Shown here piece by piece: positions 3,822 to 29,285 of a stretch of DNA of 29,996 nucleotides (its first letter is position 1; every line of letters starts with the position of its first letter). A program made the translations under genes and the position numbers. The stretch lies in the IMG/VR virus record IMGVR_UViG_3300025057_000033, positions 1-29,996 of that record; one strand, written 5' to 3'. Source of the stretch: a virus. The notes beneath the pieces are model-generated. The model was not told the origin of the DNA. It searched no databases and was given only the letters and a program-made list of their open reading frames with translations.

Positions 3822-3974
3822 ATGAAAACAATATTAGAAGCATTAGAATTTTGTAAGAAGAATAAATTATATGATAAACATATAAAGATAGCATTAGGGC
3901 TAAATAAAGCACCTGAATCATTTAAAGAAGTATTTAACTATTTAAGATTAAAAAATGATAACAAAGATATTTGA
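3822..3974 (+). CDS. Small hypothetical protein upstream of tape measure, 50 aa
   Basis: The ORF runs from ATG at 3822 to TGA at 3972-3974 and encodes 50 mostly charged, helical residues (MKTILEALEFCKKNKLYDKH, ending KNDNKDI). It starts five bases after the previous stop and overlaps the tape-measure start by 20 bases in a different frame, a tight arrangement typical of translated phage genes. The helical content and position recall small tail chaperone subunits, but there is no frameshift route into the downstream frame. The function is unknown. Confidence 0.6.
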   Translation: MKTILEALEFCKKNKLYDKHIKIALGLNKAPESFKEVFNYLRLKNDNKDI

Positions 3975-5865
3975 AATAATAACCAAGACTGGTAAAGCTG
4001 AAAAAGATTTAAAAAATGTTTCTGATGGTGTAGAAAAAGTAAATGATGGCTTAGAAACTACAAATAAGGAAGCTAAAAAACTAAGTTTACTTGGTAAAGG
4101 TTTTGCAACAGCTAAAAAAGGTGCTAAAGGTTTTGGAGCTGGTTTAAAGAGAATAGCAAGTGGTGCTGGTATATTTACTATAATAGCTTTATCATTAGAT
4201 AAGTTAAAAGAATTATTTGAATCTAATCAAAAAGTAGTAGATGTTTTTAACATTGCTTTTGAAGCATTATCCATAGCTTTTAATGATTTCTTTAATTTTA
4301 TTTCTAAAAATGTAGGAGCAGTATCTGAGTTTTTTAAGAAAATATTTGATGACCCTTTAGGTAGTGTTAAAGCATTAGGTAAAGCAATAAAAGATAATAT
4401 TATTGAAAGAGTTAAATCAGCTCTTGAAGTATTTGGTTTTTTAGGCAAAGCAATGAAAAAACTATTTGCTGGTGATTTTAAAGGAGCAGTAGAAGAAGTT
4501 AAAAATGCTGGTAGTGAATTTGTAGATGTATTAACTGGTGTTGATAATTCAGTAGAAAAAGCATCAGAAGTAATTAGTGAAGGTGTAACTGCATTAACTG
4601 AATATACTAAATCAACAGTAGCAGCAGCAACAGCAAATGTAGAACTTAAAAAACAAGCTGAATTAGCAGCAGTAGCAAATCAAGGATTAATAGAAAAATA
4701 TGATTTACAAGCAGAATCATTAAGGCAAATAAGAGATGATGAAAGATTAAGCATTGAAGAAAGAAAGAAAGCTAATGATGAATTATTATTAGTATTAGAC
4801 CAACAAGAAAAAGCAATGTTATCTAATGCACAAATATCGTTAAGAGCAGCACAAGCAGAACTTAAAAAAGATAAAGATAATATTGAGTTTAAGAAAGCTG
4901 TAATGGAAGCTGAAAATGAATTAGCTGCTGTTAGAGCGCAAGTTGCTGGTTTTAGAAGTGAACAACAATCAAATGATTTAGCATTAAGTAAAGAGGAGTT
5001 AGAAATGAATAACTCTAAACTTGAATCAGAAGCAAATTTATCTATTGAGCAAAAAAGATTTAATGCAGAACAAATAGAAGATGAATTAGAAAGGTTAGAA
5101 GCATTAAAAAAAGTTGATGCAGAAGAAAAAGCATTACAATTAAAAAGGTTACAAGGTGTAATAGATGCTGCAAGAGCTGGTACACAAGCAAAAATTGATG
5201 CAGAAATAGCATACAATGAAACAAAGCAAGAACTTGAACAACAAGAAGTTTTAAGAGCTAAAGAAATTGCAGATGCTAAAGTTAGAATTAATAAAGAACA
5301 AAATGAGCAAAAAATTCAAGATGATAAAGATGCAGAAGCAGAAATAGCTAAACAAAGACAACAAAACTTAGATGCTTTTGAACAAGCTGCAACAATGACA
5401 ATGAATGCTTTAATTGCTATTAACGAATTGACACAAGCATTTGCAAAAGAAGATGAAGCAAGTCAAAAGAAAGCATTTGAAGTAAACAAAGCAATAGGAA
5501 TAGCAAACGCAATAATAAATACTTCTGTTGGTGTTTCTAAAGCGTTAGCAAGTTCAGCACCGCCTTTAAATTTTATTAATGCAGCAATAGTAGCTGCATC
5601 TGGTATTGCACAAGTAAAAAATATTGAAAAAACAAGATTTGATAGTAGTTCTTTTGACACTACAACACCATCAACAAGCTCAGGTGGAGGAGCAGCAACT
5701 TCACCAACACAACCGCCAAGTTTTAATGTGGTAGGCCAAAGCCAAGCAAATCAAGTAGCAATGGCTTTAAGTAATCAACCACCAACACAAGCATACGTAG
5801 TAGCTGGAGATGTAACAACTGCACAACAACTACAAAACAATACAATACAACAAGCAACTTTTTAA
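3955..5865 (+). CDS. Tape measure protein candidate, 636 aa
   Basis: The protein has 636 residues and is almost entirely helical. The N-terminal 50 residues are charged coil (KAEKDLKNVSDGVEKV). A Gly-rich hydrophobic stretch follows at about 55-85 (GAGLKRIAS, GIFTIIALSL), with a second hydrophobic helical zone to about 200. A long Ala/Glu/Lys/Gln coiled coil spans about 220-480, another hydrophobic patch lies near 500-550, and the end is Ser/Thr/Gln/Pro-rich. This layout fits a siphophage tape measure, which sets tail length and passes through the host envelope. At about 0.15 nm per residue it would suggest a tail near 95 nm, an inference only. It sits between tail-tip-like genes and the head genes. 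Confidence 0.75.
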   Translation: MITKIFEIITKTGKAEKDLKNVSDGVEKVNDGLETTNKEAKKLSLLGKGFATAKKGAKGFGAGLKRIASGAGIFTIIALSLDKLKELFESNQKVVDVFNIAFEALSIAFNDFFNFISKNVGAVSEFFKKIFDDPLGSVKALGKAIKDNIIERVKSALEVFGFLGKAMKKLFAGDFKGAVEEVKNAGSEFVDVLTGVDNSVEKASEVISEGVTALTEYTKSTVAAATANVELKKQAELAAVANQGLIEKYDLQAESLRQIRDDERLSIEERKKANDELLLVLDQQEKAMLSNAQISLRAAQAELKKDKDNIEFKKAVMEAENELAAVRAQVAGFRSEQQSNDLALSKEELEMNNSKLESEANLSIEQKRFNAEQIEDELERLEALKKVDAEEKALQLKRLQGVIDAARAGTQAKIDAEIAYNETKQELEQQEVLRAKEIADAKVRINKEQNEQKIQDDKDAEAEIAKQRQQNLDAFEQAATMTMNALIAINELTQAFAKEDEASQKKAFEVNKAIGIANAIINTSVGVSKALASSAPPLNFINAAIVAASGIAQVKNIEKTRFDSSSFDTTTPSTSSGGGAATSPTQPPSFNVVGQSQANQVAMALSNQPPTQAYVVAGDVTTAQQLQNNTIQQATF

Positions 5866-8854: not shown

Positions 8855-9403
8855 ATGGCTTGCGATTTAACAGCTGGTAGAAAAGTACCGTGTAAAGATG
8901 TAATTGGCGGAATAGTTAGAGTTTACTTTATAGATTTCGGATATTTAGGAACTGTAACTAAAGTAGACGATGAAATTACTGGACTTTCTGGTACATTTAA
9001 CGCCTACCAATATGATTTAAAAGGTACTAATAGTTTAGAAACTGCTATTACCTCAAGTAGAGAGAATGGAACAACATTCTTTGAAGAAACATTAACTTTA
9101 ACACTACCTAAATTATCTAAAGAAGATAATAAGGAACTGAAGCTTTTAGCTTACGGTAGACCACACATTGTTGTAGAAGATAGAAACGGTAACTGCATGT
9201 TAGCTGGATTAGAGCATGGCATGGAGGTAACTGGTGGAAGTATAGCAACTGGTACAGCTTTTGGAGATTTAAGTGGATATACTTTAACATTAACTGGTCA
9301 AGAATTAGAACCTGCTAATTTTATTGCTGGTGCTGTAGCTGGAGACCCTTTTGTTGGCGAAACCTTTTCTGGCGCAACAATTGTTTTAGGTACAAATAGT
9401 TAA
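8855..9403 (+). CDS. Major tail tube protein candidate, 182 aa
   Basis: The protein has 182 residues, beta-rich. It begins MACDLTAGRKVPCKDVIGG and contains a conserved core I know from flavobacterial phage tail proteins: TAITSSRENGTTFFEETLTL, LLAYGRPHIVVEDRNGN, AGLEHGMEVTGG and GDLSGYTLTLTG. The first 15 residues have two cysteines. Size, beta content and position downstream of the capsid gene fit the major tail tube protein. It stands 55 bases after the capsid gene, past a hairpin, and is followed by a strong terminator, so head shell and tail tube form one short transcript. A minor head or decoration protein is the alternative. Confidence 0.7.
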   Translation: MACDLTAGRKVPCKDVIGGIVRVYFIDFGYLGTVTKVDDEITGLSGTFNAYQYDLKGTNSLETAITSSRENGTTFFEETLTLTLPKLSKEDNKELKLLAYGRPHIVVEDRNGNCMLAGLEHGMEVTGGSIATGTAFGDLSGYTLTLTGQELEPANFIAGAVAGDPFVGETFSGATIVLGTNS

Positions 9404-24555: not shown

Positions 24556-24902
24556 GTATAAACGCCAATCAAAAAGGTAAACGTTTTGAATTAAGAATCG
24601 CAAAAGATTTAGCAAAGAAATTTGATACTAATATTAGAAGAACACCTAACAGCGGTGGTTTAAGTATTAAAGGAGATATTTTAACAACTTCTGGTATACT
24701 TTCTGAATATAGCTGGGAGTGTAAGAATCAAGAAAAACTAAATATTTGGAAAGCATTAGAACAAAGTAAAAGTGATGCACGTGGTACATTAAAAACACCA
24801 TTAGTTGTATTTACTAAAAACTTTGAAGATGATTATATTGCATTAAAATACGATGATTTTGTTAATTTGCTTCTTGAATTAGATGAGTACAGAAGTAGAT
24901 AA
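24552..24902 (+). CDS. PD-(D/E)XK nuclease, Holliday-junction-resolvase-like, 116 aa
   Basis: The protein has 116 residues with the archaeal-resolvase/VRR-like nuclease pattern: NQKGKRFELRIAKDLAKKF with Glu13, RRTPNSGGLSIKGDI with Asp42, and SWECKNQEKLNIWKAL with the E-x-K pair Glu56/Lys58. This is the complete PD-(D/E)XK set in a protein of resolvase size. It probably resolves recombination or replication junctions before packaging. It ends overlapping the sigma-like gene by 20 bases and lies close to the terminase genes, where phage resolvases are often found. Confidence 0.75.
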   Translation: MSINANQKGKRFELRIAKDLAKKFDTNIRRTPNSGGLSIKGDILTTSGILSEYSWECKNQEKLNIWKALEQSKSDARGTLKTPLVVFTKNFEDDYIALKYDDFVNLLLELDEYRSR

Positions 24903-25392
24903 TATTTTACACATTCTAATAAGAGATGAAAAAACTTGGCTTAACATGGCTGAGGAAATAAGTAAAAATTCTAAAATAAATTCAAGAGATTTATTACATG
25001 ATTTTTATATTAAAATCCATAGCAAAATTGATAGTGGTAAAGTAAAAATTAATGATATTCTATATAACGATTCTTTAAATAAAGCGTTTATATATAAAGT
25101 TATGACTAATTTATTTCTTGATCAATTAAGTAGAGATAAAGATATTATATTAAATAACGAATTAAATTATTTATTAAAATCAGACAACGAACCATATATT
25201 GATATTGAAAAAATGGTAGATGAAATAGTTGATGGTTTCTACTGGTTCGATAGAAAGTTATTTAATTTATATAGAAAGAAATTTCACAGTATTAGAAAAC
25301 TATCAGCAGCAACTAATATATCTCACGTAGTTGTATGGAGAACAATAAACAATTGTATTAAAGAAATTAAAAAAAAAATTAATGAAAAGTAA
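24883..25392 (+). CDS. Sigma-70-like (ECF-type) transcription factor candidate, 169 aa
   Basis: The protein has 169 residues. Residues about 35-85 resemble sigma region 2 (SRDLLHDFYIKIHSKIDSGK, AFIYKVMTNLFLDQLSRDK), and about 125-165 look like region 4 with a helix-turn-helix (FNLYRKKFHSIRKLSAATNI, SHVVVWRTINNCIKEIKKKI). The gap between is acidic. Length and order match small ECF-type sigma factors, which I know from Flavobacterium phages just upstream of the terminase genes. It could direct host RNA polymerase to late promoters such as the AAACGTTTATA sites at 7202 and 28267. Similarity is by pattern; region 2 is weakly conserved. Confidence 0.6.
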   Translation: MSTEVDNILHILIRDEKTWLNMAEEISKNSKINSRDLLHDFYIKIHSKIDSGKVKINDILYNDSLNKAFIYKVMTNLFLDQLSRDKDIILNNELNYLLKSDNEPYIDIEKMVDEIVDGFYWFDRKLFNLYRKKFHSIRKLSAATNISHVVVWRTINNCIKEIKKKINEK

Positions 25393-28282: not shown

Positions 28283-28954
28283 ATGAAGTTAACTATTAAT
28301 ATACCTGAACAATTAAGCGAAGTTACTTTAAAGCAGTATCAAAAGTGGTTAAAGATTGCTGAGGGTAAAGAACTGGATTCTTTTCTACAACAGAAAATGG
28401 TAGAGATATTTTGTAATATACCATTAAAAAAAGTATTACAAATTAAAGCATCTGATATTAACAATATTTGCGAAGAACTTACAAAGCTATTTAATAACGA
28501 ACCTAAATTTATAGATAGGTTTACTTTAAACGATAAAGAATTTGGTTTTATACCTAAGTTAGATGATATTAGTTTTGGTGAGTACGTTGATTTAGATACA
28601 TACTTAGCAGATTGGGATTTAATGAATAAAGCAATAGGTGTTTTATATAGACCAATTACATACAAGAAGAAGAAACAGTATTTAATAGAAGAATACGAAA
28701 GCTCTGATAAATACGACATGTCAGAAGTAACATTAGATATTGTATTTGGAGCGATAGTTTTTTTTTACAGTTTAAAGAACGAATTACAGAAAGTTATCCT
28801 GAACTATTTAGCAACTCAACAGGAGATAGAGCTACCTCAGCATCTGCGGGATTCTCTGCTAAATGGGGTTGGTATCAATCCATATATGGACTTACTCAAG
28901 GCAACATTCTTAAATACAATGAAATTACCAAATCAAAACTACACACCTGTTTAA
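28283..28954 (+). CDS. Tail assembly chaperone-like protein, frame-0 product, 223 aa
   Basis: The 223-residue product begins MKLTINIPEQLSEVTLKQY and continues with QKMVEIFCNIPLKKVL, FGFIPKLDDISFGEYVDLDT and MNKAIGVLYRPITYKKKK. I recognise this pattern from flavobacterial phage proteins in the position of tail assembly chaperones, which bind the tape measure during tail building. It is the first gene after two terminators. Codons 160-161 are TTT TTT within a run of nine T, a slippery site. Frame 0 then continues 62 more codons (YSLKNELQKVILNYLATQQE, ending NQNYTPV), overlapping a -1 frame. Downstream codons are unusually GC-rich for this genome (CTG, CGG). Confidence 0.75.
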   Translation: MKLTINIPEQLSEVTLKQYQKWLKIAEGKELDSFLQQKMVEIFCNIPLKKVLQIKASDINNICEELTKLFNNEPKFIDRFTLNDKEFGFIPKLDDISFGEYVDLDTYLADWDLMNKAIGVLYRPITYKKKKQYLIEEYESSDKYDMSEVTLDIVFGAIVFFYSLKNELQKVILNYLATQQEIELPQHLRDSLLNGVGINPYMDLLKATFLNTMKLPNQNYTPV

Positions 28955-29022
28955 TGCACTTAGCATTTGAAAAGGATAAATATGAATTAGAGCAACAGAT
29001 ATTAAAAAGAAGCCAGCGATGA
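28283..29022 (+). CDS. Predicted -1 frameshift fusion of the tail assembly chaperone, 246 aa
   Basis: Slipping back one base on T TTT TTT (28759-28765, inside T9 28758-28766) joins residues 1-161 to a -1 frame that stays open to TGA 29020-29022, adding 85 residues: LQFKERITESYPELFSNS, then KWGWYQSIYGL and LKYNEITKSKLHTCLMHLAF. The KWGWY-SIYGL core and the helical end look like the second chaperone part in other phages (lambda gpG-T logic). The stop overlaps ATG 29019 of the next gene, so the fusion is coupled to it. The alternative is a one-base T-run assembly or mutation error; both frames staying open for about 190 bases argues against this. Confidence 0.65.
28758..28766 (+). promoter_or_regulatory. 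Programmed -1 frameshift site (T9 slippery run)
   Basis: Nine T follow GCGATAG and precede ACAG. In frame 0 the codons read GTT TTT TTT TAC, so the heptamer T TTT TTT meets the X-XXY-YYZ rule. The -1 frame is open from 28711 to 29019, so slippage here leads to an in-frame fusion. No clear downstream hairpin or upstream Shine-Dalgarno is seen; slippage may depend on the run itself. Confidence 0.65.
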
Positions 29023-29285
29023 CGAAAGAAGATATATTAGAAGAATTAACACGCAGAGATTTATTAATTGAAAATGAACATATTATTCTTGTTGATGGTT
29101 TTGAAGAAGCGTTTTTAGGTTGTACTGCTAATAATCCAATTAGAGCAGTTTATGATTATTGGATATGTTTAGATTTATTAATACAACGTGATAAAATGGA
29201 TTTTGATAATGCTATTGATAGTTTAGATGAATTTATAGAACAAGATTTAGGAGAACACACACCAACTTATATGAAAGTAATATGA
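29019..29285 (+). CDS. Conserved phage protein with DGFEEAFLG motif, 88 aa
   Basis: The protein has 88 acidic residues. It contains ILVDGFEEAFLG, then AVYDYWICLDLLIQRDKMDF and DLGEHTPTYM. This resembles a small family found in many phages (DGF-x-x-AF-x-G, a YDY-x-x-C-x-x-IL-x-x-RDGM core and an ending near GEHTP) whose function is not known; this copy is short. It overlaps the frameshift product and the next gene by four bases, so it is co-translated with the tail operon. Confidence 0.65.
   Translation: MTKEDILEELTRRDLLIENEHIILVDGFEEAFLGCTANNPIRAVYDYWICLDLLIQRDKMDFDNAIDSLDEFIEQDLGEHTPTYMKVI

Follow-up and report, generated by a model that had tools for sequence, protein, structure and literature searches.

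A conserved nine-T slippage site followed by two open and selected reading frames in a gene of marine Flavobacteria-type phages

The gene and its slip site

We have examined a gene of a marine Flavobacteria-type phage in which a run of nine T is followed by two overlapping reading frames, both of which stay open over a long distance. The window, by which we mean the whole stretch of 29,996 bases that was analysed, encodes a Terminase_3 large terminase, a portal, a head protease and a tape-measure gene, and it is syntenic with Nonlabens phage P12024L. The features of the locus are collected in Table 1. The run is read as GTT TTT TTT TAC, which places the heptamer T TTT TTT in the slippery phase of the gene. 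Frame 0 has 223 codons, of which 62 lie past the run, and its stop is at 28952-28954; the -1 frame contains no stop from 28711 until 29020-29022, and a protein entering it at the run would have 246 amino acids in total. The phase of the run, the 85 and 62 codons past it and the lengths of the two products had been described in an earlier note on this DNA and were all reproduced here, as was its observation that the shared stretch is enriched in GC (36.4% vs 27.8% upstream in the same gene).

Table 1. Features of the gene, its slip site and the overlapping frames in the window
Feature	Position	Strand	Basis
Frame-0 gene, 223 aa; N-domain of 161 codons up to the slip site, then a 62-codon frame-0 tail	28283-28954	+	Open reading frame and translation
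Slippage site: nine-T run, heptamer T TTT TTT in the phase of the gene	28758-28766	+	Phase of the open reading frame; relatives
-1 frame extension, 85 codons and stop (LQFKERITESYPELF...KWGWYQSIYGL...ILKRSQR)	28765-29022	+	Translation; homology to P12024L
Dual-coding stretch, 62 frame-0 codons (186 bases)	28766-28951	+	Codon-position counts, simulation, codon-shuffle tests
ATGA: -1 stop overlapping the ATG of the next gene (29019-29285, 88 aa)	29019-29022	+	Window sequence; relatives

The ATGA overlap between the -1 stop and the start of the next gene is kept in 128 of the 152 relatives that have a long frame-0 tail, and given this overlap, expression of the next gene may be coupled to shifting. 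Ribosomes that remain in frame 0 would stop about 65 bases upstream of its ATG. Elsewhere in the window, a run of ten A lies at 25369-25378, near the 3' end of the open reading frame 24883-25392 and not far from where the next one begins (25382); it is a possible candidate for a second slippage site.

The run and the -1 segment in related phages

Could the true run have ten T, the gene being a plain single-frame one that was altered by an assembly error? Viral contigs were scanned with the frame-0 product, with the N-domain only, with the -1 segment only and with two divergent -1 segments, and as relatives we counted the 164 distinct sequences in which both frames were complete. Exactly nine T in the same phase were found in 161 of them, from many metagenomes, and nearly all relatives had the run in the identical phase whichever query was used, be it the whole frame-0 product, the -1 segment only or the N-domain only. 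Two relatives have ten T, but their preceding codon has become TTT and the phase is unchanged. A single one has eight (L200, 2303-2310), which breaks the phase and puts the N-domain into the third frame; this is probably an assembly error, or else a defective variant. A plain one-frame fusion, as an extra T would produce, occurred in none of the 164. The run is also present in the same phase (CTTTTTTTTTA) in the isolates P12024L and P12024S of Nonlabens (Persicivirga) phages, at about 30% identity. The single match in the genome collection was a contig of a Flavobacteriaceae MAG (L253, 4445-5181), which has ten T as ATT TTT TTT TTG, again in the slippery phase, with both frames open, a long frame-0 tail and a terminase gene upstream; this match points to Flavobacteriaceae as the hosts.

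Homopolymers are error-prone and the relative with eight T looks like an error of just this kind, but the recurrence of nine T in the relatives and in two isolate genomes, together with the preserved phase of those with ten T, stands against a miscounted run, and frame 0 would not stay open in a single-frame gene. We regard the single-frame gene as extremely improbable, and a sequencing error that hides a tenth T in the window is ruled out by the relatives. The earlier note, which had pointed to homologues as the place to look, is upheld in this respect: practically all of the relatives have the nine T together with the two open frames.

When the -1 protein was aligned in 35 diverse members, 11 columns were invariant. 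The part of the -1 segment right after the site (FFLxF, then for example YPELF) is conserved as far as P12024L, in which the extension is homologous, at 30% identity, to the gp40 frame overlap plus gp41. A protein search with the -1 segment, which had been proposed earlier, returned homologues including P12024L, but no functional family.

Is it possible that the -1 part is made by internal initiation? The relatives differ in the number of frame-0 codons past the site, which is 16-25 in a P12024-like group of 12 distinct sequences and 47-66 in the other 152. An ATG is absent from the first 30 codons of the -1 segment in 151 of these 152 long-tail relatives, so that internal initiation cannot supply the -1 part there, and we rejected it for this group. 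All 12 sequences of the P12024-like group have a -1-frame ATG before codon 30; for them internal initiation is possible as an extra route, and re-initiation could yield a separate C-domain besides the frame change. In P12024L (L082 3436-3695), the -1-frame ATG overlaps the frame-0 stop as TAATG.

Selection on the two frames

The earlier note had proposed that the shared stretch is truly dual coding. The opposite would be that only the -1 product matters and that the frame-0 tail is a passenger, open simply because of the amino-acid composition of the -1 protein, and it is true that the -1 motif KWGWYQS partly determines some frame-0 residues, NG-GIN among them. However, when the -1 protein of the window was kept and codons were drawn from genome usage, frame 0 stayed open for at least 62 codons in 0.2% of the draws, and when its own synonymous codons were permuted, this was the case in 0.9%. 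At least 47 open frame-0 codons were found in 37 of 41 lineages, vs 3.2 expected with the -1 protein kept and the codons redrawn; these lineages are less than 80% identical to each other in nucleotides, yet they have a common ancestry and are therefore not independent draws. We also simulated the evolution of a 58-sequence clade under -1 constraint only, calibrated on the N-domain, with a single kappa, per-codon omega and a consensus root, so that the exact ratios are approximate. Without frame-0 constraint, 57.9 of 58 simulated sequences acquired a frame-0 stop in the 62 codons, whereas none of the 58 observed ones has any, a contrast which is too large for the simplicity of the simulation to matter.

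At the third position of -1 codons we counted 22 changes vs 104 expected in frame-0 codons 1-20, 53 vs 127 in codons 21-40 and 82 vs 128 in codons 41-62, with 46 vs 78 in the -1-only control, and the excess constraint from frame 0 is therefore strong in the first part, moderate in the second and none in the third. Within codons 1-20 there were 52 changes at frame-0 position 3 vs 22 at position 2, which is position 3 of the -1 frame; such a pattern identifies a translated frame 0, as opposed to an RNA structure, and it also argues against the passenger explanation. In codons 41-62 the -1 third position varies about as freely as in the control and stops are absent. The distal tail appears to be maintained mainly by stop avoidance and is not clearly conserved as a protein, and this scarcity of protein-level constraint is what the passenger explanation would predict for this part. 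For the tail as a whole we consider that explanation improbable. The synonymous-site comparison which had been suggested thus found constraint in both frames, by codon-position counts, simulation and codon redraws alike, and these patterns indicate that the shared stretch is under purifying selection in each frame, graded along frame 0. Dual coding holds across many lineages, but it is not uniform, being strong for about 20 codons and moderate to about 40.

The predicted structure agrees with this profile. An AlphaFold2 model of the 223-aa product, built from a 35-sequence alignment, has a pLDDT of 78.8 and a confident N-domain, whose last helix (151-178) spans the site at residues 160-161 and takes in the first 17 residues of the frame-0 tail; residues from 195 onwards have a pLDDT below 50. 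The -1 segment modelled alone is helical, with moderate confidence (70.7).

Slippage, probable role and comparison with known phages

A programmed -1 frame change at the conserved in-phase T TTT TTT is supported by these comparisons, and we infer that both proteins are produced, with a common N-terminus and different ends. Most ribosomes would read the nine T in frame 0 and make the 223-aa protein, whose last 62 residues would first prolong the last helix of the N-domain and then continue into the segment predicted with low confidence. A minority would slip on T TTT TTT into the -1 frame and produce the 246-aa protein, which would end in the KWGWYQSIYG domain. Slippage by the ribosome is the conventional reading and the one to which we give a moderate preference. 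Could the RNA polymerase slip instead? Some transcripts would then gain one U and be translated normally into the -1 frame, and transcripts of other lengths would give minor products. Bacterial RNA polymerase does slip where nine A or nine T follow each other (review, PMC5009743). Neither alignment folding nor single folds revealed a conserved RNA structure downstream of the site, as none of the 7 predicted pairs showed a double (compensatory) change and the fold z-scores lay between -1.2 and 0.7. At the third base of Phe161, a C in place of T would alter neither the frame-0 protein nor the -1 protein (TTR/CTR Leu), and the heptamer would still be an ordinary slippery one. Even so, the run is intact here: this base was unchanged in all 101 sequences, compared with 22, 6, 0, 5 and 10 changes at five other conserved Phe codons. 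However, one of these control codons likewise has no changes, T TTT TTC may just be a poorer slippery sequence, and the phase of T TTT TTT exactly suits ribosomal slippage, which lambda-type tail genes use, sometimes without stimulators (PMC5009743). Nine T without a conserved stimulatory RNA would fit either enzyme, and we look upon polymerase slippage as a possibility to be taken seriously, albeit the less probable one.

What could the two proteins do? A change of frame by one base which gives a short and a long product typifies the tail chaperones of long-tailed phages (PMC5009743), and by its two-product design the gene of the window, too, looks like one for a pair of tail assembly chaperones. 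The databases say little about this. The frame-0 gene matches phrog_32199 (E 3.5e-16), which is one of the two unknown families, the other being phrog_38404, between which PHROGs divides the gene. Similarly, in GenBank gp40 and gp41 of P12024L/S are annotated as two hypothetical proteins and the frameshift site is unannotated. The gene products have no match in Pfam, nor in the PDB by sequence or by fold, and our literature searches did not find the gene described. A fold search of BFVD returned the homologue from P12024S, a large number of uncharacterised proteins of phages and one weakly matching protein annotated as a tail assembly chaperone (probability 0.90, E 0.08, TM about 0.3), and a search with the model of the -1 domain gave only unnamed or uncharacterised proteins.

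The location of the gene urges caution as well. Several genes separate it from the tape-measure gene (3955-5865), in P12024L as in the window. The terminase gene precedes it and neck-like genes follow, an order seen in the window, in P12024L and in the Flavobacteriaceae MAG. Together with the lack of a chaperone family match, this position might suggest some other assembly factor, for example one for the neck or for packaging. On the other side stand the short and long products typical of tail chaperones, the weak fold match and the fact that no other chaperone candidate was seen near the tape-measure gene, and we think such a different factor rather unlikely, though well worth keeping in mind. 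A role in tail assembly, which the earlier note had assigned, is plausible from the layout, but the structural matches to named chaperones are weak, and given the location and the absent family matches we do not claim membership in the lambda G/GT family. We consider it probable that this is one gene for two proteins, selected by slippage at the nine T, and that the pair are tail chaperones. By analogy with lambda gpG/gpGT, they would most likely chaperone the tape-measure protein and recruit tail-tube subunits in a fixed ratio; a candidate gene for the tube protein lies at 8855-9403 of the window.

These findings extend the kind of frame changing known from tail genes to a widespread and almost unannotated group of marine phages, and they provide a natural case in which about 190 bases encode two C-termini with measurable selection in both frames. 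Since the nine T are invariant and come without a conserved RNA structure, a clean test between ribosomal and transcriptional slippage should be possible in the isolate P12024L. More tentatively, and with somewhat less than even confidence, we suggest that, for a large family of marine phages of the Flavobacteria type, the 47-66 overprinted codons give the unshifted product a functional C-terminal tail of its own, that slippage picks between two C-terminal parts instead of deciding between the presence and absence of an extension, and that the nine T may act via RNA polymerase.

The unusual feature of the gene, as the sequences present it, is an unshifted product that continues well beyond the site, with a conserved tail overprinted on the shifted reading. 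In the relatives compared, the long frame-0 tail is the rule in this phage gene family, unlike in the classical enterobacterial phages. The earlier note was right that unshifted products of the lambda type end soon after the site, as far as lambda and P2 are concerned, which have 5 and 6 frame-0 codons left; HK97 has at most 16, and for the mycobacteriophages D29, Bxb1 and Che8 the tail lengths are upper bounds only, because their records do not give the shift point. Lambda and P2 are the precedents for the two-product design (PMC5009743). As in our gene, the unshifted and -1 products of lambda, gpG and gpGT, have a common N-domain, the C-domain being read in the -1 frame, and there is no sign of a stimulatory RNA. 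Lambda slips at GGGAAAG, however, not at nine T, its gene lies beside the tape-measure gene, between the latter and the major tail protein gene, and no sequence relationship between the two systems was detected. P2 gpE/E+E' shares with the window gene a T-run heptamer (TTTTTTG) in the right phase, a -1 shift and two products, but its run has six T and it is adjacent to the tape-measure gene T. The true homologues are gp40 and gp41 of P12024L and P12024S (JQ823123, JQ823122), which share the nine T, their phase and the order of genes with the window and have a homologous -1 segment. They differ in that their frame-0 tail has 25 codons and in that their -1 part has an ATG at codon 26, which is annotated as the start of a separate gene, gp41.
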